Shown one piece after another: positions 4,063 to 26,472 of a stretch of DNA of 64,000 nucleotides. The stretch comes from Akkermansiaceae bacterium (GTDB lineage: Bacteria; Verrucomicrobiota; Verrucomicrobiia; Verrucomicrobiales; Akkermansiaceae). Numbering within the stretch: position 1 is the stretch's first letter; each line of letters starts with the position of its first letter. The translations under genes and the position numbers were made by a program. The DNA lies in NCBI GenBank assembly GCA_947462535.1, contig CANHPN010000002.1, positions 1-64,000 of the forward strand. Reading direction: 5' to 3'. The notes beneath the pieces were generated by a model that was not told the origin of the DNA, made no database searches, and saw nothing but the letters and a program-made list of their open reading frames with translations.

Positions 4063-5073
4063 ATGCGCTACCTCATTCCATTCCTCATCACTCCGCTCGT
4101 GTTCGCCCACCCTGAAGACGGCACCAAGCCGGGAAATGATCCCCACACTGCGGTGCGCACCGGCAACGGTGCCTGGTCGTTCGAGGCGGTGCCACACTGG
4201 GGCGAGCTGCCGGACGGGAAAATCATCGGCCCGACCCACGGCGGCGTGGTGGTGGATGACGAAAGCGGGCTGGTTTACGTCTCCACGGATTCCGAGCTGT
4301 CGGTGCTGGTCTATCAACCGGACGGCAAGCTGGTCCGCACCATCGCGCCGGAGTGCCGGGGTTTCCATGCGATGGCGATCCGCAAGGAGGATGGGAAAAC
4401 CATGATTTACGGTGCCCAGCTCAACAGCAACAAGCCGCCGGTGCGGGTTTGCAAGATCGACACGGAGGGCAAGATCCTGTTGGAAATCCCCAACGCCGCC
4501 ACCGGTGAGATTCCCGGCGGCTGGAACGGCCTCACCGCGGTCACGGTCGCTCCCGATGGCAGCATCTTCGCAGCGACCGGCTACGGCGCGAACATCATTC
4601 ACAAATTCGATGCCACTGGAAAGCTGCTGAAATCCTTCGGCAGCAGGGGCGAGGATGAAAAGCAGTTCAACACGCCCCACGGGCTGGCGCTCGACACCCG
4701 TTTCGGCGAACCGCGCCTGCTCGTCGCGGATCGTGAAAAACGCCGCCTCGTCCACTTCGACCTCGAAGGAAATTGGATCGGTGTCCATGCCATCAACCTC
4801 CGCCGGCCTTGTGCAATCAGCATTTTGGGCGACACTGTGGCGGTCGCGGAGCTCGAATCCCGCGTCACTGTTCTGGACAAGACCGGCACCCCGGTCGCCT
4901 TCCTCGGCGACAATCCGAACAAGGCGCAGTGGGCGAATTTCGGAGTGACCCCGCAAGACCAACAGCTCGGGATTTTCACCGCGCCGCATGGCCTGAGTTT
5001 CGACAAGGCGGGAAATCTTTACGTCCAGGATTGGAACAAGACCGGCCGCGTCACCAAGCTGACCAAGCTGTAG
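4063..5073 (+). CDS. exported NHL-repeat beta-propeller protein
   Basis: 336 residues from the ATG at 4063, chosen because it begins a clean signal peptide (MRYLIPFLITPLVFA, cleavage after FA). The mature part is a string of propeller blades with NHL-like phrases: 'THGGVVVDDESGLVYVST', 'VTVAPDGSIFAATGYG', 'HGLALDTRF', 'APHGLSFDKAGNLYVQDW'. This is a six-bladed propeller of the NHL/peptidylglycine-lyase-like class, common in secreted proteins of this phylum, probably a periplasmic or extracellular binding or enzymatic scaffold. No catalytic residues can be assigned. Single gene between the helicase and the signalling operon. Confidence 0.7.
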   Translation: MRYLIPFLITPLVFAHPEDGTKPGNDPHTAVRTGNGAWSFEAVPHWGELPDGKIIGPTHGGVVVDDESGLVYVSTDSELSVLVYQPDGKLVRTIAPECRGFHAMAIRKEDGKTMIYGAQLNSNKPPVRVCKIDTEGKILLEIPNAATGEIPGGWNGLTAVTVAPDGSIFAATGYGANIIHKFDATGKLLKSFGSRGEDEKQFNTPHGLALDTRFGEPRLLVADREKRRLVHFDLEGNWIGVHAINLRRPCAISILGDTVAVAELESRVTVLDKTGTPVAFLGDNPNKAQWANFGVTPQDQQLGIFTAPHGLSFDKAGNLYVQDWNKTGRVTKLTKL

Positions 5074-5182
5074 TCTTTGCCGGCACTGAACCGGCTATTT
5101 TCGGAGTTTCTGCTTCCTCGGGGAATTTGGACCTTGGAAGGGTGTGCGTTTGTTGCTAGTTGGGGGCAGTGGAAACCCAGTC

Positions 5183-8100
5183 ATGACCCGGAAAAAAGAA
5201 GGTATCCAGAGGCAAAAAGTCGAGGCAGGGGCTACCAAAGCGGTAGGGTCGTCCGCAGGATCGGAGGAATCGCCGAGGGGATTTCCGGTGGTCGGCATCG
5301 GCGCGTCGGCAGGAGGATTGGCGGCGTTCGAGGCGTTTTTCGCCGGGATGCCTGCGAACAAGGACCCCGGGATGGCCTTCGTCTTGGTCCAGCACCTGGC
5401 TCCGGATTATAAGAGCATCCTCACCGACCTGATCCGCCGCTGCACCCGGATGGAGGTTTTCGAGGTGGAGGACGGAATGGTCGTGCGTCCGAACTGCACC
5501 TACATCATCCCGCCGAACCACGACATGGCATTTCTTAACGGCGCGCTGCAACTGCTGCCGCCCTCCGAGCCGCGCGGCCAGCGGCTGACGATCGACTTCT
5601 TCTTCCGCTCGCTGGCCCAGGACCAGCGCGAGCAGGCCATCGGCATCGTGCTTTCCGGTACCGGCTGTGACGGCACGCTCGGGGTGCGGGCGATCAAGGG
5701 CGAGGGCGGGATGGTCATGGCGCAGAGCCCGGAGTCCACCGAGTTCGACGGCATGCCGTGCAGCGCCATCGCCACCGGCTTGGTGGATTACGTGCTGCCG
5801 CCTGCGGAGATGCCTGCGCGGCTCATCGCTTACGCCGCCCATGCTTTCGGCAAGCCCGAGCTGACCGTCACCTCGCCGGCGACCAAGACCGAGAGCGCCC
5901 TGCGCAAAATCTTCATCCTGCTGCGCGCCCAGACCGGCCATGATTTCTCCCAATACAAGCCGAGCACCGTGCATCGCCGCATCGACCGGCGGATGGCGGT
6001 CCACCAGATCGAGTTGGTCGATGAATACGTCAGGTTCCTACAAAGCACTCCGGCGGAGGTGGAGGCGCTGTTCCGGGACCTGTTGATCGGCGTGACGAGG
6101 TTTTTCCGGGACGGGGAGGCTTTCGAGTATCTCGAGCGGGAGGTCATTCCCAAGCTGTTGAAAGAAAAGCCCGCCGGCGAGCCCATCCGGATCTGGACGG
6201 CGGGATGCTCCACCGGCGAGGAGGCCTACTCGATCGCCATCCTGCTGGTGGAACGCATGAACGCCTTGAAACGCCACTATCCGGTGCAGATCTTCGCCAC
6301 CGACATCGACAGCCGGGCGATCGCCGCGGCGCGGGCGGGACTCTATCCGGCGAGCATCGCGGTGGACGTGTCACCGGAGCGGCTGGCGCGGTTTTTCACG
6401 CCCGAGGCCGATGGCAGCGCCTATCGGATTCACAAGAACATCCGCGACCTGCTGGTCTTTTCCGAGCAGGACGTGATCAAGGACCCGCCCTTTTCCAGGG
6501 TTGACCTGATCAGCTGCCGCAACCTGCTCATTTACATGGGGGCGGAATTGCAGAAGAAGCTCATCCCGCTGTTTCACTACGCATTGAAGCCGGGCGGAAT
6601 CCTGTTTCTGGGCACTTCCGAGGGGGTGGGCGAGTTCGGCGACCTGTTTACCGCGCTGGACCGCAAGTCCAAGATCTATCAACGGCAGGGCGACCTCCAC
6701 CGCCTGCCGCGCTCGTTGCTGAGCCATTTCCTGCCGCCGGCCGGGACGCCCTATCCGTTGCTGCCGCCGGGTGCCGCCACGCCGCAGCTCCCCGCCAAGG
6801 TGCCATTGCGCGAGCTCACCGAGCAGGCACTCCTGCAGCAGGTCGCTCCGGCGGGCGCGCTGGTCAACAGCCGGGGCGACATCCTCTACCTGCACGGCCG
6901 CACCGGGATGTATCTGGAGCTCGCTCCGGGCGAGGCGGGCATCAACAACATCCTGAAAATGGCCCGCGACGGACTGCGGTCGAGCTTGATCACCACCTTC
7001 CACAAGGCGGTGGAAACCAAGGAAACCGCTTGCTCTCCCGGCTTGTACGTGAAGACCAACAGCCATTTCAGCACCGTCAACCTGACGATCCGTCCGGTGA
7101 CCAGCGGCCTTGCGGCGAGTCCCGAGTCGCCGCTCTATCTGATCATTCTGGAGGATGCTCCGGCCGTGCAGTCGCCGTCCCCCGCCGCCCTCGCCGCCCC
7201 CGCCGGCACCGGGCAGGAAACCGACGCGCTGATCCTCGCGCTCAGGCAGGAGCTGCGGGCCAAGGAGGATTACCTCCGCAGCGCCAACGAAGAACTGGAG
7301 AGCTCCACCGAGGAGCTCAAGGCCTCTAACGAGGAAATGCAGTCGGTCAACGAGGAGCTGCAATCCTCCAACGAGGAGCTTGAAACCTCCAAGGAGGAGC
7401 TCCAGTCGGTCAACGAGGAGCTCGCCACCGTCAACGCCGAGCTGCAAACCAAGGTCACCGACCTCACTCGCGCGAACAACGACATGAACAACCTGCTCGC
7501 CGGCACCGGCGTGGGCACCGTGTTTGTGGACCACCAGCTGCGCATCCTGCGCTTCACCCCGGCCGCCAACGCCATCATCAACCTGATTCCTTCCGACGTC
7601 GGCCGGCCGGTCGCCCACATCGTTTCCAACCTCGTCGGCTACGACCGGCTGGTGGCCGACATCCGCTCCGTGCTGGACTCGCTGGTCGCGATCGAAGCAA
7701 CCGTCCAGGCCACCGATGGCAAGTGGTATGCGATGCACATCCAGCCTTACCGCACGCTCGACAATGTGATCGAAGGCGCGGTGATTTCCTTCATCGATGT
7801 CACCGAAATCGTGCAAGCGCGCGACGCGCTGCGCAAGGCCAACGAGCAACTCCAGCGCCTAGCGGTGGTCGTCCGCGACGCCAACGACGCCATCACCGTG
7901 CAGGATCTGGAAGGCCGCATCACCGCCTGGAATCCCGGCGCCACGCGGATTTACGGCTGGAGCGAGGCCGAGGCGCTGGCGATGAAGACTGGCGACCGGA
8001 TTGCGCCGGACCGCCGCGAGGAAGAACTCGCCCGGCTCAACCAGCTGGGCCGGGCCGAAATTCTCGAACCTTACGAAACGCAACACCTCACCAAGCAAGG

Positions 8101-17349: not shown

Positions 17350-17898
17350 TCACCCCAGCGCCGCAATCACCTTGGCCACCGGCAGGCCCATCACGTTGTC
17401 GAAATTTCCGCGAATCCCTGCGATGATCCGCTCGCCGGATTCCTGGATGCCGTATGCCCCGGCCTTGTCTAGCGGGTTGACGAGCGCGAAATATTCCTCG
17501 ATCGCCGCGTCGTCGAGAGCGAGGAACGTGACCTCGGTGGTGTCATGAAACACGTTTTTCCCGCCACCCGGATAGATGACACACACGCCGGTGCAGACCC
17601 GGTGCGTGCGGCCGGATAGACGCCGCAACATGCCGCGCGCCTCGTCCAGATCCGCGGGTTTCCCCAGCGGCAGATCATCGATGAACACCAACGTGTCCGA
17701 GCCGATCACCGTCGCGTCCGGCCGCATGATCGCCACCGCCGCGGCTTTCAAAGTGGCGTTCAGCTCGCACAGCAAATCCGGCTTCATCGCCGGATCGTGG
17801 AGTTCCTCCGCCGGGGAGGCCACCACCTCGAAACTCACCCCCGCCTGCTCCAGCAATTCACGGCGGCGGGGGGATGAGGAGGCGAGCACGACGGGCAT
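17350..17898 (-). CDS. maf: Maf-like nucleoside triphosphate pyrophosphatase
   Basis: 182 residues. Starts with the family signature LASSSPRRRELLEQAG, continues with IGSDTLV (catalytic acid strand), GKPADLDEARGMLRRLSGRTH and ends with the GAYGIQ and GNFDNVMGLP blocks. Maf proteins hydrolyse non-canonical or modified NTPs (dTTP/UTP or m7GTP) to monophosphates in the cytoplasm and are linked to septation in some bacteria. It lies 36 bases after the HtrA-like pair on the same strand and may be co-transcribed with it. Confidence 0.92.
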   Translation of the reverse strand: MPVVLASSSPRRRELLEQAGVSFEVVASPAEELHDPAMKPDLLCELNATLKAAAVAIMRPDATVIGSDTLVFIDDLPLGKPADLDEARGMLRRLSGRTHRVCTGVCVIYPGGGKNVFHDTTEVTFLALDDAAIEEYFALVNPLDKAGAYGIQESGERIIAGIRGNFDNVMGLPVAKVIAALG

Positions 17899-17934: not shown

Positions 17935-19122
17935 TCACGGTTGTTCGAGCGCTTCCATTTCCTGGCGCAGGTGGTCCATCAGACGCTGCATGTCGCTCAG
18001 ATGGCGGCGCATCCGGTCCTCGCCACCGGGCATCGCCCGGCCGCGTTGCGCATTCCCGCGCGTGGTCGCCGGCACTTCCTTCTCTTCCTGCCTCACCTGG
18101 GCCAGTGCCGGATTTCCGGCTTCTTTCTTGAGCAAATCCACCACCGCCGCAGCCGGCATCACGAACGAGCGCGTCCGGTCCGCGCGCGCCATGGTGATTC
18201 CTAACACGCGCCCCTGCAGATCCACCACCGGCCCGCCGACCTGGTTCGGCTTCGGCCGCATGTCGGTCTGGATCACCTGGGTGAACGAATCCCGCACCTG
18301 GCTAACCGGTCCTCCCATGCGCTCCATCTGCTCAAGCCGGCCGTTGGCATACTGTGGCAGCTGGGGGCGGTTTCCCACAGTCACCTCGACTGCTTTCTTA
18401 TCGCCGTTCGCTTCGACGAGCAGCGAAACCTTCGCGCCGGGAGTAACCCCGGTGAGCGCGTTCTTCAACTCCAACAGACCTGAGATCGGCCGCTCGCCGA
18501 CTTTTAAAATCACGTTCCCCGGCTTCAATCCCGCCGCGTGCGCGCCGGAACTTTCATCCACCTTATGAATTTTCACGCCCTGGCCGGTGAAGCCCGGTTC
18601 CCCGATCACCCCGAGGTAGGCGAGATCCGTGTCGCGCAGGTTGCGGCTCAACACGCTCACCACGCCGAACGCGGCGAGCCGGCCGTCCGGCTGCGGAGCG
18701 GCGAGAAATCCCCCGAGTCTGGGAGATTCGAACGACCAGCTCACCGGAGTGAGCGGCTGGCCCTCGACCTCCAACAACACCAGGTCCTCGTCTTGATAGA
18801 CACCCGCCAGCTTGACGGCGCGGCTCTCGTCCCCGGCGTCCACGCGCAGGTTCCCCCTCGCGCGGGCGACCTCGCTCCACTTTGTTAGAATCCTGCGACC
18901 GTCCCCGACCACGGTGCCGTATGCCAGCCGCCGCGAGCCGGACCACACCCGCACCGTGGACTTCGCCGCGGTGGCGAGCGCGGGCTTGATGGCTGCGTTG
19001 AACTCGTCCGCTTGCGCATCGACGGCCTGGCGCTCCTCCGGCAACAGCAGCGGGATGTCGTCCTGCGCACGCAATGCGTTAGGCAGTCCGAGCGCGATGA
19101 TGAGATAAACAATCGGTTTCAT
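17935..19122 (-). CDS. HtrA-like pseudoprotease with internal PDZ domain
   Basis: 395 residues with a signal peptide (MKPIVYLIIALGLPNALRAQ). The trypsin-like fold is visible but the triad is lost: the His site reads ILTKWSEV (Ser83) where the neighbour has ILTAAHVV, and the Ser site reads NQVGGP (Val295) where the neighbour has GDSGGP; only the Asp site (DEDLVLL) remains. A PDZ domain (about 158-245) lies between the N-terminal lobe and the strand holding the former Ser, not after the protease as in normal HtrA. The tail is Arg/Gln/Met-rich and helical. It follows an active HtrA by 11 bases and probably regulates or scaffolds it in the periplasm. Confidence 0.75.
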   Translation of the reverse strand: MKPIVYLIIALGLPNALRAQDDIPLLLPEERQAVDAQADEFNAAIKPALATAAKSTVRVWSGSRRLAYGTVVGDGRRILTKWSEVARARGNLRVDAGDESRAVKLAGVYQDEDLVLLEVEGQPLTPVSWSFESPRLGGFLAAPQPDGRLAAFGVVSVLSRNLRDTDLAYLGVIGEPGFTGQGVKIHKVDESSGAHAAGLKPGNVILKVGERPISGLLELKNALTGVTPGAKVSLLVEANGDKKAVEVTVGNRPQLPQYANGRLEQMERMGGPVSQVRDSFTQVIQTDMRPKPNQVGGPVVDLQGRVLGITMARADRTRSFVMPAAAVVDLLKKEAGNPALAQVRQEEKEVPATTRGNAQRGRAMPGGEDRMRRHLSDMQRLMDHLRQEMEALEQP

Positions 19123-19133
19123 AGCGGTGTTCC

Positions 19134-20129
19134 TTAGCGTTCTTCAAAAAGGGCTTCGCGGCGGGCCAGCACGACCTCCACCTCCAGCGCTCGGCGGTCC
19201 CGCAGGACACCGAGCCTTACCTTGTCGCCGGGCTGCTTTTTCGCCAGCACCTGGAGCAGCTTGCTAGCATCGCGGATGGCGCTGCCGTCGAGCGACTCGA
19301 TGATGTCGCCAACTCTAACTCCCGCAGCGGCGGCCGGAGATTCCGGAACCACGCTCTCCACCGGCACGCCCTTGGATGCGCGGCGCATTCCCATGCCGAT
19401 GCCGAGCACCGGCATTTCCGGGTTGGCGAACGGATTCATCGAGAGCCTTCCCCAGGCCTCGCCGGCGCGGATGCGCTCCCAGTCCTCCTTGAAGCCGTCG
19501 ATGCCGGCGTGGTTGTTGTTCGTTAGGGAAACCCCGATAGAGGAATTGATGCCGACGATTTTCCCGTCGAGGTCGAACAACGGCCCGCCCGAATCACCGC
19601 CGATCAAGGTGCAGTCGGTGGTCAGGAAATTTCCCGGGCCTTTCGAAACCACGCGGCCGAAGCGGACTGGCGGCGTGCGCGCGGCATCGAAGCCCGCCGA
19701 GTGGCCGAGCGCGACCACCCAGTCGCCGGCGGCGAGCGATTTCGAAGCACCCATCGCCGCGAACGGCCACGGCCCCTTGCGGGTGATTTGCACCATCGCG
19801 ATGTCCTTGGAATAGTTCGCGCCGAGGACTTTTCCCGGGACTTGCTCGCCATTCGGAAAAACCACCAGCAGCTCGTCCGCGCCTTGCACGACGTGGGCGG
19901 CGGTCAGGATCAGGCCCTCCGCGGTGGTGATCACGCCGGAGCCGGAGGAGCCGGTTTTTTCCGAAAGCAGCGCCACCGTGGCTGGCAGCACCTTGGCGGA
20001 AACCGTCTCGACCCTGCCCTCCAGTTTCGCGAGGTCCTTCAAATCACGCACCGGCTCGCTCGCCAACAAAACTCCCGGAACCAGCCACAAACAAGCGCAG
20101 GCGATGAGAAATACGGGATTCACTTTCAT
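19134..20129 (-). CDS. HtrA/DegP-like periplasmic serine protease
   Basis: 331 residues from the ATG at 20129, which starts a signal peptide ending in LLASEP. Full catalytic triad: His79 in LTAAHVV, Asp109 in YSKDIAM and Ser180 in GGDSGGPL. One PDZ domain at about 235-325 (PAAAAGVRVGDIIESLDG). HtrA proteases degrade or refold damaged envelope proteins. It is first in an operon with the pseudoprotease and possibly maf, and is divergent from the penicillin-binding protein genes with about 100 bases between them. Confidence 0.88.
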   Translation of the reverse strand: MKVNPVFLIACACLWLVPGVLLASEPVRDLKDLAKLEGRVETVSAKVLPATVALLSEKTGSSGSGVITTAEGLILTAAHVVQGADELLVVFPNGEQVPGKVLGANYSKDIAMVQITRKGPWPFAAMGASKSLAAGDWVVALGHSAGFDAARTPPVRFGRVVSKGPGNFLTTDCTLIGGDSGGPLFDLDGKIVGINSSIGVSLTNNNHAGIDGFKEDWERIRAGEAWGRLSMNPFANPEMPVLGIGMGMRRASKGVPVESVVPESPAAAAGVRVGDIIESLDGSAIRDASKLLQVLAKKQPGDKVRLGVLRDRRALEVEVVLARREALFEER

Positions 20130-20227: not shown

Positions 20228-22528
20228 ATGCCAAAACACAACCCGCCAGATACTAACCGCCGCCGAAAGGAAGCGCCCGGAAGCGCCCCGTCGCGCGGCC
20301 CCGGCGGCCTGTCGATCCTGTTGTTCTGGCCGTTTCACCTCTTCAACCTGTTCACCCGCCCCTTCGCCACGCCGGTGAAATTCCTGCTCCGCCTCGCCGG
20401 ATATCCGGTCGTCGCGGGCATTTACGGCCTCGTGTTTTTCGCCGTCGCTTACGGCGTCCGCGCCCAGAAATACGATCTCGCGAAAATCCACGCGATGCCC
20501 GAGCGCTCGATCATCCACGACCGCCTCGGCGAGGAAATCGGCCGTATCCACGGGGAAAAGCGCTCGATCGTCCCGCTCCACCAGGTCGCCGAGAATTTCC
20601 GCAAGGCCATCCTCGCCCGCGAGGACGAGCGCTTCTATCAACACGGTGCCGTCGATCTCATCGGCATCGCCCGGGCGGTTCTGAAAAACCTCGGCGGTAA
20701 AAAAGAAGGCGCCTCGACTCTCACCCAGCAGCTCGTTTCCGACATCTTCCAACTCAAGCGCGGCGAGAACCGCGGCGACACGCTCCGCCAGTTGGACCGC
20801 AAGATGCTCGAAATCGCCATCGCCTTCCGCCTCGAAGCGTCGCTGGAAAAGGACGACATCCTCGAGGCCTACATCAACCAGATCAACTGGGGCCGCCAGA
20901 TCAAAGGCGTCGGCGAGGCCTCGCGGATCTATTTCGAGAAACATCCGTCCGAGCTAACACTTTCGGAATCCGCCCTGCTCGCCGGCATCGTCCGCGGCCC
21001 GGATTCCTTCAATCCTTTCAAATCGATGGACGCCGCCACCCGCGAGCGCGGCACCACGCTCGCGCGCATGGTCACTGCCGGAGTCATCACCCCGGCCGAG
21101 GCCCAGGCCGCCAAGGCGGAACCCATCGAGGTCAGGCCGGAATGGCGGCGCGAAACCCAGGAATCCTACGCGATGGACGCCATCCGCCGCGACCTCGAGG
21201 TGATTCTCGAAAAGGAAAACATCGAACTCGGCGGACTCAGCATCACCACCACCATCGACCTCCGCATCCAGCGCAAAGGCGAAGAGGCGCTGGACAAAAA
21301 ACTCCGCGAGGTTGAGCGCCTGTCAGGCTATCCGCATCCCACCCGCGCCGCCTGGCGGGAGGCCCCGGCGGAAAAGCGCAAGGAGCCCGCCTACATCCAG
21401 GGTGCCGCCGTCGTCGTCGAAAACCGCACCGGAGCCGTGCTCGCCATCATCGGCGGCCGCGACGCCAACGAATCCCGTTTCAACCGCGCCACCCAGGCCC
21501 GCCGCCAGATCGGCTCGCTCTTCAAACCCTTCGTTTACCTCGCCGCCTTCGACAAGGGCCTGCGGCCGGACACCAGCATCAGCGACGGCCCGATCCAGAG
21601 CGGCGAGATCAAAGGCGGCGGCACCTGGCACCCGGACAACTCCGACGGCAAATTCGGCGGCATGCAGCCCGTTTCCTACGGCCTCATCCGCTCCCGCAAC
21701 ACCATGTCCGTCCGGGTTGGCAACCACGCCGGCATCCCCGTGGTCAAGGAAGTCGCCCGGATGGCCGGCTTCACCACACCGATGCCGGAGAACCCGTCGT
21801 CCTTCCTCGGTTCCTGGGAGGCCTCGCCCTGGGAAATCGCCACCGCCTACACCATCTTCCCTAACGACGGCGTCCGCTACCGCCCTTATTTGATTTCCGA
21901 AATCAAGGACCGCGACGGCAACGTCCTCTACCCCGCCAACCAGATTTCCTACCCCGCCGCCAAAGCCGGCTCCGCATGGTCCGTTTCCCGCATCCTCAAC
22001 GAGGTCGCCACCCACGGCACCGCCGCCTCTGTCACCCGCCTCGGCTTCGACAAACCCTGCGGCGGAAAAACCGGCACCACCAACGACTTCAAGGACGCAT
22101 GGTTCGCCGGATACACCTCCACTCTAACCTGCGCCGTCTGGGCCGGCTTCGACACCCCGAAAAAAACCATCCAGGGCGGCTACGGCTCCGCCCTCGCCCT
22201 GCCGGTCTGGGTGGACATCATGAAAACCGCCGACCGCCTCGGCTACAAGGCCGGCAAGCTCAACAGCAAGTCCAACCTCGTGGAAATGGAACTCTGCCGC
22301 CACTCCGGAAAGCGCGCCACCAACGGCTGCCAGTCCGCCGGCTCCGCCTATCAGGACCGCGTCCCCGCCGACATCGCCCTGCCCGCCAACGACCTCTGTC
22401 CGCTCCACCCCGCCAGGGCCCAGGCCGTCGATGAGGCGACCCTGACTTCCACCGAGCCCGCCCCGCCCCGCGCCCAGCCCGTCGAGGAGGACGCCGACAT
22501 CCCGCTCAAAGCCATCCCCGTCGAATAA
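20228..22528 (+). CDS. class A penicillin-binding protein (bifunctional)
   Basis: 766 residues from the ATG at 20228. One membrane helix (about 59-75) follows a basic cytoplasmic tail. The GT51 glycosyltransferase has REDERFYQHG and EGASTLTQQLV. The transpeptidase has all three motifs: S430LFK, S489RN and K614TGTT. It polymerises lipid II and crosslinks peptidoglycan. A Pro/Ala/Glu-rich tail follows a Cys-containing segment (ELCRHSGKRATNGC). The next gene is a second, degenerate PBP on the same strand, 49 bases away. Confidence 0.93.
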   Translation: MPKHNPPDTNRRRKEAPGSAPSRGPGGLSILLFWPFHLFNLFTRPFATPVKFLLRLAGYPVVAGIYGLVFFAVAYGVRAQKYDLAKIHAMPERSIIHDRLGEEIGRIHGEKRSIVPLHQVAENFRKAILAREDERFYQHGAVDLIGIARAVLKNLGGKKEGASTLTQQLVSDIFQLKRGENRGDTLRQLDRKMLEIAIAFRLEASLEKDDILEAYINQINWGRQIKGVGEASRIYFEKHPSELTLSESALLAGIVRGPDSFNPFKSMDAATRERGTTLARMVTAGVITPAEAQAAKAEPIEVRPEWRRETQESYAMDAIRRDLEVILEKENIELGGLSITTTIDLRIQRKGEEALDKKLREVERLSGYPHPTRAAWREAPAEKRKEPAYIQGAAVVVENRTGAVLAIIGGRDANESRFNRATQARRQIGSLFKPFVYLAAFDKGLRPDTSISDGPIQSGEIKGGGTWHPDNSDGKFGGMQPVSYGLIRSRNTMSVRVGNHAGIPVVKEVARMAGFTTPMPENPSSFLGSWEASPWEIATAYTIFPNDGVRYRPYLISEIKDRDGNVLYPANQISYPAAKAGSAWSVSRILNEVATHGTAASVTRLGFDKPCGGKTGTTNDFKDAWFAGYTSTLTCAVWAGFDTPKKTIQGGYGSALALPVWVDIMKTADRLGYKAGKLNSKSNLVEMELCRHSGKRATNGCQSAGSAYQDRVPADIALPANDLCPLHPARAQAVDEATLTSTEPAPPRAQPVEEDADIPLKAIPVE

Positions 22529-22577: not shown

Positions 22578-24287
22578 ATGTCCACCTGGCGTCCCATCCA
22601 CCCACCCTCGTTTTGGAAGCGCTGGCTTCCCGGATGGATGCACGGCCCGGTGAAACTGCTCTTCCAACTCTCAGTCGCGGGAGCCGTCGTTTTGTTAGGA
22701 TTCGCGTTCTTCTACTTCATGCTCGCGATGCGCTTCGACATGGACGAGGTCGCCAAACTCCCCGCCGGCACGACCTTCTACGACCGCAAGGGCCAGGAAA
22801 TCACCGCCCCCGGCAGCAACAGCGGCAAGCTGGTGAGGCGCGATGAAATCCCGGACTTCCTCGTCAAATCGCTGCGCGCCCGGGAAGACGCCCGGTTTTT
22901 CGAACACGGCGGCGTGGACTTCCGCGGCCTGGCGAGGGCCACCGTTAGGAACCTCAAGGACCGCGACTTCACCCAGGGTGCCTCCACCCTCAGCATGCAG
23001 CTCGCCCGCAACAGCTTCAAAATGAAGCAGAAATCCCTGCACCGGAAGTTCCTCGAAATCGCCCTCACCCTCCGCGTCGAGCAACGCTACACGAAGGACG
23101 AGATTCTAACCCACTATCTGAACCGCATCTACTTCGGCGCCGGGGCCGACGGCATCGAGCAAGCCGCGCGCACCTATTTCGGGAAAACCACCCGCGACCT
23201 CAGCGACGGCGAGTGCGCCATGATCGTCGGCATCATCCGCGGCCCGCACATCTTCTCGCCCTTCCGCAACCTCGACGCCGCCATCGAGCAACGCAACCAG
23301 ACCCTCACCCGCCTCATCGCCATGGGCCTCATCGACACCGCCCGCCGCGACGCCATCATCGCCGAGCCCGTCAAACTCGTTAGCGACGAACACCGCGAAA
23401 CCCAGACTTCCTACGCCCTCCAAGCCGTCCGCCGCGAGCTCGACGGCATTCTCGAAAAGGACGACATCCTCTTCGGCGGCCTGCACGTCCACACCACGTT
23501 GGATGCCGCCTGGCAGAACCGCCTGGAAGTCGAGCTCACCCGCGCCGTCGAGGATCTGGAGCATGAGAAAGGCTGGCCGCATCCCACGGAAGCCGCCCAC
23601 GCCTCCGGCACCGAGCCCGCCTACATCCAATACGCTGCCGTCACCACCGAGACCAAATCCGGTGCCACCCTCGCGCTCATCGGCGGGCGGAATTACAGCC
23701 ACTCCCGCTTCGACCGCACCCGCTCCAGCCGCGATCTCGGCTCCGCCTTCGAGCCCTTCGTCGCTGCCGCCGCCGCCGAGCGCGGCGGGCTGGTGCTGCC
23801 CGGCAAGCCCGTGCAAACCGGCCGCCAGATCGGCCCGGCGGAAGTCGAGCGCCTCGCCAAACGCTGCGGCATCGCCGGTCCGTTTCTCGAAACCGAGGAT
23901 TTGTTCCGCGGCTCGGTCGCCGCCACCCCGCTCGAAATGTCAGTCGGCCTCGCCACCCTCGGCAACCAGGGCAAACGCGCGAAACCCTATCTGATTCAGG
24001 AAATCCGCGACACCACCGGCGAGGTGATTTACAAGGCCAAGCCCGTCCTGAGTGCCGCCCTCAGCCCCGCCGCTGCGCTCGATGCGACCAGCGTCCTTCA
24101 GCGCTCCGGCGGCACCCGTTGTTTCACCGGAGCCACCGGTTCCGAGCGCGACGCCTGGACCCTCCGCCTCGGCCCCGGCGGCGCGACCGCCATCTGGCTC
24201 GGCTTCGACAAACCCGCCGCCATCGCCCGCGAGCCCCGCCTCAAGTCCCTGCTCGACGAGTTCGTCAAGCGCCTCGGAAACAACTGA
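22578..24287 (+). CDS. class A PBP with intact glycosyltransferase and degenerate transpeptidase
   Basis: 569 residues. Membrane helix about 30-50. The GT51 domain is complete: AREDARFFEHGGVDF with Glu103, QGASTLSMQLARN, and YLNRIYFGAGADGIEQAARTYFG. The C-terminal domain keeps the transpeptidase outline (YIQYAAVTTETKSGATLALIGG, as in the upstream PBP) but motif I is S389AFE, with Glu in place of the essential Lys; no SxN is seen and the KTG site reads GATGSERD. It is about 200 residues shorter than its neighbour. It is probably a monofunctional glycan polymerase that may still bind muropeptides or the upstream PBP. Confidence 0.8.
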   Translation: MSTWRPIHPPSFWKRWLPGWMHGPVKLLFQLSVAGAVVLLGFAFFYFMLAMRFDMDEVAKLPAGTTFYDRKGQEITAPGSNSGKLVRRDEIPDFLVKSLRAREDARFFEHGGVDFRGLARATVRNLKDRDFTQGASTLSMQLARNSFKMKQKSLHRKFLEIALTLRVEQRYTKDEILTHYLNRIYFGAGADGIEQAARTYFGKTTRDLSDGECAMIVGIIRGPHIFSPFRNLDAAIEQRNQTLTRLIAMGLIDTARRDAIIAEPVKLVSDEHRETQTSYALQAVRRELDGILEKDDILFGGLHVHTTLDAAWQNRLEVELTRAVEDLEHEKGWPHPTEAAHASGTEPAYIQYAAVTTETKSGATLALIGGRNYSHSRFDRTRSSRDLGSAFEPFVAAAAAERGGLVLPGKPVQTGRQIGPAEVERLAKRCGIAGPFLETEDLFRGSVAATPLEMSVGLATLGNQGKRAKPYLIQEIRDTTGEVIYKAKPVLSAALSPAAALDATSVLQRSGGTRCFTGATGSERDAWTLRLGPGGATAIWLGFDKPAAIAREPRLKSLLDEFVKRLGNN

Positions 24288-24390: not shown

Positions 24391-26472
24391 GTGGCCGCGG
24401 GGAATGACGCAGAACGATGGCGGACGGACGGGAAATTCTTCCGCTCCGGAGACCGGCGCATGCGGATGAACGCGGTCACTTACGGGCCGTTTCCCGGCGG
24501 CTGGCCGAGGTCGTTCGGGCCGGATTTCTCACAAATAACGGCGACGGGATTCAACGCGATCCGGCTTTATGAAATGCCGGACCTGCGGCTGCTGGACGCC
24601 GCAGCGGATCACGGATTGAAAGTTTTTGGCGGGCTCGAATGGGGCCAGAGCGCGGATTTTTTCCAACGTCCGGGGATTTACACAGCCGCCGCGATCTCGC
24701 TGGTCAACGCCTTGAAGGAAACCGGCGATCATCCGGCACTGGCGGGCGTCTATGTCGGCAACGAGATCCCCGCCGACCTGGCGCGCTGGATGGGTCCGCT
24801 CAAAGTGCGACGGGCGATCGAAGAACTTATCGCCCTCGGCAAGGAGCTCGCGCCCGACCTGTTATTCGCCTACGCGAACTACCCGAGCACCGAATACCTG
24901 GAGCCGGAAAACGCCGATTTCACCGCCTTCAACATCTATCTGGAAAGCGAGCCGGAGTTCCGCAGCTACCTCAAGCGGCTGCATCACATCGCCGGCGACC
25001 GGCCGCTGGTGATCTCGGAATTCGGCGTCGATTCGTGGCGGAACGGCCTGGAGCGGCAGGCGGAAATTCTCCGCTGGGCCGGCCAGGCCGCGCTGGATCT
25101 GGAAACCGCCGGAATGACGATCTACGCGTGGAGCGACCGCTGGTGGGTCGGCACCGAAGTGCTCGACTGGGATTTTGGCCTGATAGACCGGCAAGGCAAC
25201 GCGAAGCCCGCGCTCTCCGCGCTCAAAACTCACACAGCGCCTGTCCGCCCCCTGTCCTTCAGCGTCATCGTCTGCACGCGTCGCGGCCGCGACCGCATCG
25301 GCGGCTGCCTAACCGCCATCGGGAAAATGGACGGCGGCGGCTTCGAGACGATCGTCGTGGACGACGGCTCGACGGACGGCAGCGCCGATTTCGTGGAGAG
25401 AAATTTCCCGTGGGCCCGGCTCGTGAGGTTGGAACCGTGCGGCCTGAGCAGCGCCCGCAACATCGGCGCGGCCGCCGCGAAAGGCGAGGTGCTGGCGTTC
25501 ACGGACGACGATTGCGAGCCGGACCGGGAATGGATCGCGCGGTTGAGGACAATTTTTCACGAGGGAATATTCGTAGCGGCGGGCGGACCGAATTTACCGC
25601 CGAAACCAAAGACCTGGGAGCAAGCGGTCGTCTGCGCCGCGCCCGGGGCACCCAGCCACGTGATGCTCGACGACGAGGAGGCCGAGCACCTGCCAGGCTG
25701 CAACCTGGCCGTGACGCGGGCGGCGTTAGAGGCGGTCGGCGGCTTCGATCCGCAGTTCCACGCGGCGGGCGACGACGTGGATTTCTGCTGGCGGCTGAGG
25801 GACGCCGGATTCCGCCTCGGCTTCGTGCCCGGTGCCTTCGTCTGGCATTGGCGGCGGCCGTCGATCTCGAAATTCCTCGGCCAGCAACTCGGCTACGGCC
25901 GCGCCGAGCGCCTGTTGTTAGCGAAGCACCGTGCCCGCTTCTCGAAGCGCGGCGACGCGAAATGGCACGGCTTCATTTACGGCGGCGGCCCGGTCCGCGT
26001 GATGGCGGATTCCATCATCTACCACGGCCCGATGGGCGACGCGGGCTATCAGTCGATCACCAACCGGATGCTGCCGCTGCGCGGGATTGAGAAAAAATTC
26101 GATACCTGGCAATCCCGGCTCGCGCTCCGTGCCGTGAAATTCCTCCAGCCCCGAATCCGCGCCTGGGCGAGAAGCCCGACGATTTTCCTCCGCTCGGAAT
26201 CCGACCGGAAACCCCGGACTTCCGGCCAAGCCGATGAGTTCTCGATCAACTCCGCAGAAGGCAAGGACCGCCACCATTTCCTCGGAATCCTGCTCCGCCA
26301 AGGCTGGAAGACCGCAGGCGAAACCGACGCCTGGGACCTCGAAAAAGCCGGCACCCGCGTGCTGATGGCCACCGAGCGCGGCGGCGGAACCGCCAGACGC
26401 ACGCTCGTCCGCGTGTGGGGTTCCGAGCCGGCCCGGATCGCCCGGATCCTCGGAGAGAAAATCGTTTCCTGA
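24391..26472 (+). CDS. glycoside hydrolase-like / family 2 glycosyltransferase fusion
   Basis: About 693 residues from a GTG at 24391; later starts are possible. N-terminal domain (about 20-285) is a clan-A TIM barrel resembling GH2/GH5, with YVGNEIP holding the acid/base Glu and VISEFGVDSW holding the nucleophile Glu. A GT-A glycosyltransferase follows (about 290-600): FSVIVCTRRGRDR, VVDDGSTDGSADF, AFTDDDCEPDREW, and FHAAGDDVDFCWRLRDAG. The last ~100 residues are unassigned. No signal peptide or membrane helix is seen, so it is likely cytoplasmic and makes or remodels a polysaccharide. No other polysaccharide genes adjoin it. Confidence 0.75.
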   Translation: MAAGNDAERWRTDGKFFRSGDRRMRMNAVTYGPFPGGWPRSFGPDFSQITATGFNAIRLYEMPDLRLLDAAADHGLKVFGGLEWGQSADFFQRPGIYTAAAISLVNALKETGDHPALAGVYVGNEIPADLARWMGPLKVRRAIEELIALGKELAPDLLFAYANYPSTEYLEPENADFTAFNIYLESEPEFRSYLKRLHHIAGDRPLVISEFGVDSWRNGLERQAEILRWAGQAALDLETAGMTIYAWSDRWWVGTEVLDWDFGLIDRQGNAKPALSALKTHTAPVRPLSFSVIVCTRRGRDRIGGCLTAIGKMDGGGFETIVVDDGSTDGSADFVERNFPWARLVRLEPCGLSSARNIGAAAAKGEVLAFTDDDCEPDREWIARLRTIFHEGIFVAAGGPNLPPKPKTWEQAVVCAAPGAPSHVMLDDEEAEHLPGCNLAVTRAALEAVGGFDPQFHAAGDDVDFCWRLRDAGFRLGFVPGAFVWHWRRPSISKFLGQQLGYGRAERLLLAKHRARFSKRGDAKWHGFIYGGGPVRVMADSIIYHGPMGDAGYQSITNRMLPLRGIEKKFDTWQSRLALRAVKFLQPRIRAWARSPTIFLRSESDRKPRTSGQADEFSINSAEGKDRHHFLGILLRQGWKTAGETDAWDLEKAGTRVLMATERGGGTARRTLVRVWGSEPARIARILGEKIVS

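Follow-up and report, generated by a model that had tools for sequence, protein, structure and literature searches.

A conserved protease and its triad-less partner in Verrucomicrobiales as a candidate split HtrA

On the minus strand of a 64,000-nucleotide stretch of an Akkermansiaceae genome (contig CANHPN010000002.1, positions 1 to 64,000; the window), we identified two adjacent genes for HtrA-like proteins that form a conserved two-part system, widespread in families of the order Verrucomicrobiales. The first encodes P0002, a protease of 331 amino acids (aa), and the second, 11 bases downstream, encodes P0001, a 395-aa relative that has lost the catalytic triad and carries a PDZ domain within its fold. 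We see about an even chance that the pair encodes one secreted two-subunit HtrA, in which the dead P0001 senses via loop L3 and its PDZ domain and controls P0002 in trans. The sizes, coordinates, and intergenic gap given in the initial annotation of this DNA are correct (open reading frames (ORFs) at 19134-20129 and 17935-19122). The features of the pair are:

19134..20129, minus strand: P0002, active HtrA-type protease, 331 aa counted from ATG (ORF, Pfam, alignment, AlphaFold)
19170..19400, minus strand: C-terminal PDZ domain of P0002, residues 244-320 (Pfam PDZ_2)
19123..19133, no strand: gap of 11 bases between P0002 and P0001 (ORF coordinates)
17935..19122, minus strand: P0001, triad-less HtrA relative, 395 aa, PDZ domain within the C-terminal lobe (Pfam, alignments, AlphaFold, VIA-align)
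18874..18876, minus strand: Ser83 of P0001 at the catalytic His position, motif T-K-x-S-E (alignment)
18784..18786, minus strand: Asp113 of P0001 at the catalytic Asp position (alignment)
18643..18645, minus strand: Arg160 of P0001, immediately ahead of the PDZ insertion, aligned with the HtrA L3 arginine (alignment)
18373..18627, minus strand: inserted PDZ domain of P0001, about residues 166-250, at the L3 position (Pfam 179-249; model secondary structure)
18238..18240, minus strand: Val295 of P0001 at the catalytic Ser position (alignment)
17944..18024, minus strand: C-terminal helix of P0001, residues 367-393 (AlphaFold model)

A protease with a dedicated, inactive partner

P0002 comprises an N-terminal hydrophobic segment, a Trypsin_2 domain at residues 63-194 (Pfam E-value 2.2e-27), and a C-terminal PDZ_2 domain at 244-320 (2.2e-18). 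For P0001, the Trypsin_2 match falls into two stretches with PDZ_2 at 179-249 in between. Conservation was counted over 134 distinct pairs, derived from 178 paired loci by collapsing on a 200-residue stretch of the dead partner. His79, Asp109, and Ser180 of P0002 are kept in 134/134 homologues, in agreement with the active protease named in the initial annotation. At the His position of P0001, all 134 homologues have Ser, so the loss of the active site goes beyond chance; outside this set, inspection by eye shows Thr (L238) and Glu (L242) at position 83 of two distant members. The Asp113 position holds Asp in 133/134 and Asn in one (L118). The Ser position is occupied by Ile, Cys, Val, Ala, or Met in 129/134, and by Ser in one partner, L115, which has Ser at both the His and Ser positions. 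The family alignment thus bears out the replacements first read from the window, Ser83 for His and Val295 for Ser with Asp113 retained. No alternative triad, hidden or shifted, was seen among the 134 homologues, and no column exceeds 50% His; His occurs at position 286, beside the conserved Asp287, in 30/134 dead partners, away from the catalytic His position. Further invariant or near-invariant residues of the dead partner are Lys81 (132/134), Arg160 (134/134), Arg313 (131/134), and Arg316 (134/134).

The inserted domain is conserved as well. Position 171 is Gly in 133/134 and position 170 is Leu, Ile, Val, or Met in 134/134, a combination that we take to be the carboxylate-binding signature of PDZ domains. 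Within the close family of P0001, 63/63 members match both PDZ_2 and Trypsin_2 (Pfam).

The first search with P0001 gave some match in 95/99 genomes and listed 150 places. We fetched 89 of these, namely 54 full-length rows from genomes of the window's genus plus 35 of the 92 weaker rows of the second type; the remainder were 4 fragments cut by contig ends and 57 weaker rows. Of 60 other genomes in this genus, 53 have a full-length orthologue listed and 3 more have contig-cut pieces. The second-type homologues, with about 30% identity to P0001, are found both within the genus and elsewhere in the order, in other families. Every fetched place (89/89) carries an intact protease and a triad-less partner. 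A second search added 28 loci and a GTDB-wide scan aimed at close relatives added 62, all Verrucomicrobial by title, for a total of 179 (the sets overlap). Both genes are present at 178 of the 179 loci fetched with P0001-type queries, and the exception, L178, ends at a contig edge. The halves lie on one strand in all pairs. Fifteen of the 178 are fused, and among the 163 unfused ones the frame of the protease starts first in 162. In the sole apparent reversal (L166) a long open frame contains the dead partner, whose match, 5001-6167, falls after the protease. Both genes were also found in 13 of 15 extra regions chosen to inspect odd cases.

More broadly, in a 387-genome sample of the phylum the full pseudoprotease and the pair-type protease occur in the same 37 genomes, of which 29 belong to family f1, 6 to f4 (another family of this order), and 2 to a distant family, f38. 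The cut-offs behind this count were picked after score gaps had been seen (pseudoprotease, 8.1e-69 or better versus four partial matches near 1e-21; protease, best match per genome, 2.3e-53 or better versus 5.1e-48 to 5.5e-41 in 21 other genomes). Of 23 genomes listed for sister genus g21, 13 have both proteins and 10 have neither; the ten genomes of this genus without either pair are 2.2-2.7 Mb in size. Several complete g21 genomes have the pair in duplicate.

Of the splits supported at 0.9 or above (70 in one tree, 68 in the other), the trees of the protease and the dead partner have 43 in common, and their distances correlate at 0.94, a value reached in 0/1000 permutations; shared species history contributes to this agreement. 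The window's genome has a second pair (L055, at about 13.1-15.1 kb of G000:C62) with overlapping reading frames, whose products share about 30% identity with P0001 and 37% with P0002. Each half of the genome's two pairs falls in its own pair's clade, so the pairs have stayed faithful. Natural fusions into single ORFs account for 15 of the 134 distinct pairs, and by parsimony the fusion state changed 8 times on a tree with some weak nodes. The L115 fusion has the reverse order, with the dead half first, and the second half of L048 lacks a signal peptide by eye. Three additional fusions are L238, L239, and L242. The fused pairs L112 and L238, from the distant family f38, have long linkers between the halves.

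Taken together, pairing, co-occurrence, matching trees, and fusions in both orders strongly support P0001 as a dedicated partner built from a protease, the part of the initial proposal that stands. The lost His and Ser could also mark a decaying duplicate with no function. We give this negligible weight: P0001 is conserved across the whole order with new invariant residues, its pairing is maintained, and no internal stop occurs in the 54 full-length dead-partner rows from the window's genus, a set that includes P0001 itself. A pseudogene is ruled out by this conservation.

The inserted PDZ domain and loop L3

An AlphaFold model of P0001, with 62 homologues as input, has a mean predicted local distance difference test score (pLDDT) of 82.5 and a predicted template modelling score of 0.67. 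The strands of its second lobe are at residues 139-143, 149-160, 283-286, 298-300, 306-313, and 319-323, and the PDZ domain (about 166-250) plus a helix at 261-268 lie between strands 149-160 and 283-286. In the model, then, the PDZ domain is inserted in the C-terminal lobe, after the second strand and before the third, which is the site of allosteric loop L3. The initial annotation had put the domain between the lobes, which the model amends to a position inside the second lobe; that the domain is within the fold and not C-terminal holds, since Pfam splits Trypsin_2 and AlphaFold agrees. Structure prediction of the 395-residue protein revealed neither a PDZ domain outside an intact fold nor shifted catalytic residues. 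The same arrangement was sought in other verrucomicrobia, and the insertion is present in 134/134 dead partners, with 122-137 residues from Arg160 to Asp287. The C-terminal part of P0001 is modelled as one helix, in which Met378, Leu381, and Glu388 are at least 90% conserved (alignment A4). An alignment centred on the fusions (A6) stacked both halves on one another and was left out of modelling.

Residues 28-340 of the model (about 180 aligned) match AlgW, DegS, MucD, and DegP with Z scores of 20.7-21.3, and the protease domain of MamO with 19.8, in VIA-align, the second structural comparison that we used beside Foldseek. Foldseek TM-scores are low (query-normalised 0.25-0.35 among the 50 matches listed), probably a consequence of the inserted PDZ, which leaves the chain no longer colinear with ordinary HtrAs.

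The AlphaFold model of P0002 (mean pLDDT 82.9) has strands at 155-163 and 168-171, so its L3 would consist of four residues, 164-167. The pLDDT falls below 50 at residues 18-23, at 198-200, and at 176-180, which runs up to the catalytic Ser, a pattern compatible with an activation region that is unformed without a partner.

In human HtrA1 trimers, the L3 arginine works across subunits: it acts on the LD loop of the adjacent subunit and hence on the oxyanion hole, and it lies 26 residues from the catalytic Ser (328 minus 302) (PMC5666011). The spacing is also 26 in the HtrA2 chain aligned to P0001, where Arg160 pairs ungapped with the L3 arginine in a stretch of 1.5 bits. Arg160 has the same distance from the strand glycine as in the ordinary HtrAs of the window's genome, two of which (L181 and L182) have a longer L3 and Arg at that spacing. 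We take DegS R178 and DegP R187 to be equivalents of the L3 arginine; a DegS R178A structure appears, by title, among the structural matches. Overall, it looks as if the dead subunit retains the sensor arginine with a PDZ domain right behind it, and in the model the live subunit is almost without L3. The initial term "regulator" fits in part, given the predicted PDZ position in L3 and the conserved putative L3 arginine.

In the two-subunit reading that we give about an even chance, a "split HtrA", P0002 would be the cutting subunit of a secreted pair, and P0001 its dead companion of trypsin fold in a hetero-oligomer. The sensor would reside in P0001, where the L3 arginine and a peptide-binding PDZ share the same loop. 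With P0002 mostly lacking an L3 loop in the model, the L3-to-LD step would be supplied in trans by P0001, gated by peptides bound to its PDZ, such as the exposed C-termini of damaged proteins. We infer the stoichiometry, the binding, and the sign of control, which would be activation and not inhibition of P0002. One form of this reading, to which we assign a little less than an even chance, has a reduced catalytic subunit (short L3, in some lineages no PDZ) that is idle alone and is activated by the dead paralogue with L3 arginine and PDZ upon peptide binding. This arrangement would have arisen once before the radiation of the order, with later duplication of the whole pair and several fusions, and the dead site may also have turned into a binding pocket lined by Lys81, Asp113, Arg313, and Arg316.

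Some proteases of the pair type have no PDZ domain of their own. Three of the 15 fusions (L068, L071, and L112) have a single PDZ, in the dead half, by PDZ profile. In g21, the second-type protease ORFs are 249-273 aa in 12 of 13 genomes and the 13th is fused; PDZ absence was judged here by frame length, and five of the 12 sequences were inspected directly. Pfam finds no PDZ in the L232 protease, and the protease of the L239 fusion is likewise without one. The g21 loci at which the second pair's protease lacks a PDZ are L231-L234, L239, and L243. PDZ loss in fusions L074 and L075 was ruled out, as the profile finds two PDZs. At L023 and L129 the protease ORF ends early in the PDZ (a tail of about 102 residues past the catalytic Ser), by either a frameshift or a real truncation, and the dead partner's frame is open.

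Several observations weigh against the split-HtrA proposal. The alignment of Arg160 to the HtrA2 arginine is weak at the score given above. Moreover, phmmer places P0002 Arg159, not a gap, opposite the L3 arginine of DegQ, so that the loss of this arginine from P0002 is a prediction from the secondary structure of the AlphaFold model (pLDDT about 74 in this region). Two arginines of P0002, Arg156 (134/134) and Arg159 (126/134), are themselves conserved and might do the job of the L3 arginine. The transfer would be incomplete, since 12 of the 15 fusions retain the protease's own PDZ and so do the unfused proteases, as far as examined, except the second type of g21. Charged residues kept in the dead site (Lys81, Glu84, Asp113, Arg313, and Arg316) suggest an extra role that the split model leaves unexplained. 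In one genome (G080) the two genes are unlinked: they lie on different contigs, over 16 kb away from the contig ends, and the 5-6 kb fetched held no partner. Finally, for MamE and MamO, the comparable proteins of magnetotactic bacteria, the authors could not detect a physical interaction (PMC4794232).

Two other modes of partnership have to be weighed. As an adaptor or chaperone, the dead subunit would bind unfolded substrates via its PDZ and body and hand them to a protease whose intrinsic activity is unchanged. DegP-like proteins are also chaperones, the carboxylate-binding signature of the PDZ is kept, and the pairing and fusion data fit equally well. However, a PDZ at either end would do for this purpose, and neither the L3 site nor the invariant L3 arginine is predicted; we consider an adaptor unlikely, though worth keeping in view. 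Alternatively, the dead subunit may be a brake: within a mixed oligomer it would keep the protease inactive, and a ligand of the PDZ would free it. This is consistent with all pairing data, and a dead subunit within an oligomer would be a simple dominant inhibitor, but with its L3 truncated the protease should be idle alone, leaving little to inhibit. A brake seems distinctly unlikely to us.

Genes flanking the pair

Genes of the neighbourhood include:

17350-17898: Maf-like gene flanking the pair (ORF list / Pfam)
20228..22528, plus strand: class A penicillin-binding protein (PBP), divergent neighbour, start taken as the in-frame ATG at 20228 (Pfam Transgly and Transpeptidase)

Two class A PBPs flank the pair in divergent orientation. 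A divergent PBP adjoins 48 of 66 testable near-clade pairs versus 1 of 35 testable far-clade pairs, which rules out the PBP neighbourhood as a general part of the system. This setting bears on a further alternative, in which P0001 is a repurposed scaffold. Its dead site would bind a ligand or ion, its work would be largely separate from that of the protease, and adjacency would reflect shared envelope or cell-wall maintenance. The near-clade PBP neighbours and the conserved charged residues near the dead site (Lys81, Asp113, Arg313, and Arg316) speak for it, as does the precedent of MamO, which binds metal (PMC4794232). The near absence of PBP neighbours from far-clade pairs and the lack of any majority-His column count against it, and fusions in both orders with joint presence and absence favour a joint function. 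We judge a protease-independent scaffold to be improbable.

The second class A PBP (22578-24287, plus strand) seems to have a dead transpeptidase domain, with SxxK reading S-A-F-E and Pfam covering 43 residues; the PBP at 20228-22528 differs in having an intact GSLFKPF. Across 59 loci (duplicates included) whose best match spans the motif, SxxK is ordinary in 46, where the first PBP is probably the one being hit, and has Glu for Lys in 13. The two PBPs may thus be another live/dead gene pair adjoining the protease pair. Further along, the product of 24391-26472 (plus strand; 693 residues) has a family 2 glycosyltransferase domain at about 290-500 (Pfam) and, N-terminal of it, a weak, below-cut-off match to a glycoside-hydrolase catalytic core.

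Relation to known HtrA systems

DegS, DegP/DegQ, AlgW, and MucD are HtrA proteases of peptidase family S1C, and ordinary HtrAs combine sensor and catalysis on one chain and form homo-oligomers. P0001 resembles these proteins in its trypsin fold (at the VIA-align scores given above), its PDZ, and an arginine at the L3 position. They differ in having an intact triad and a PDZ that follows the protease domain, not within it as in P0001. By the features that define S1C HtrAs, P0002 has the triad and the C-terminal PDZ, whereas P0001 has the trypsin-like fold and lacks both the triad and the C-terminal PDZ placement. The NCBIfam model for Do-family HtrA (TIGR02037) scores P0002 at 162.9 bits and P0001 at 58.5 bits, both below its cut-off of 416.2.

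In plant chloroplasts, Deg5 and Deg8 are two different HtrA subunits that cooperate, and both are regarded as active; we know of no inserted PDZ in either. Deg8 is a weak PDB match of P0001. Human HtrA1 is a homotrimer with all parts in each subunit, and its L3-to-LD step is the one that would have moved to P0001 (PMC5666011).

MamE/MamO, the nearest precedent, is like P0002/P0001 in that an active HtrA and an HtrA-derived pseudoprotease are encoded together. Dead MamO is required for its live partner's proteolysis; besides a di-histidine that binds metal, it has a TauE-like transporter domain on which activation depends (PMC4794232). The di-histidine is unmatched in P0001 by the His-column count, although another metal site is possible. 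The transporter domain is also missing: Pfam finds only Trypsin_2 and PDZ, and the C-terminus is the single modelled helix. A PDZ inside the fold is a feature of P0001, and natural fusions exist for P0001/P0002. The NCBIfam MamO model gives P0001 16.7 bits against a cut-off of 800. P0001/P0002 may work like MamE/MamO without being members of that type. We found no description of the P0001/P0002 pair in the open-licence PMC literature, a scope outside which most subscription papers fall.

HtrA is a textbook allosteric protease, and its identical subunits make the between-subunit relay from L3 to LD hard to separate. If the split-HtrA proposal is true, nature would have separated this relay in Verrucomicrobiales, so that the sensor could be mutated without touching the enzyme, and P0001 would be a further bacterial HtrA pseudoprotease, after MamO, that serves an active sister.
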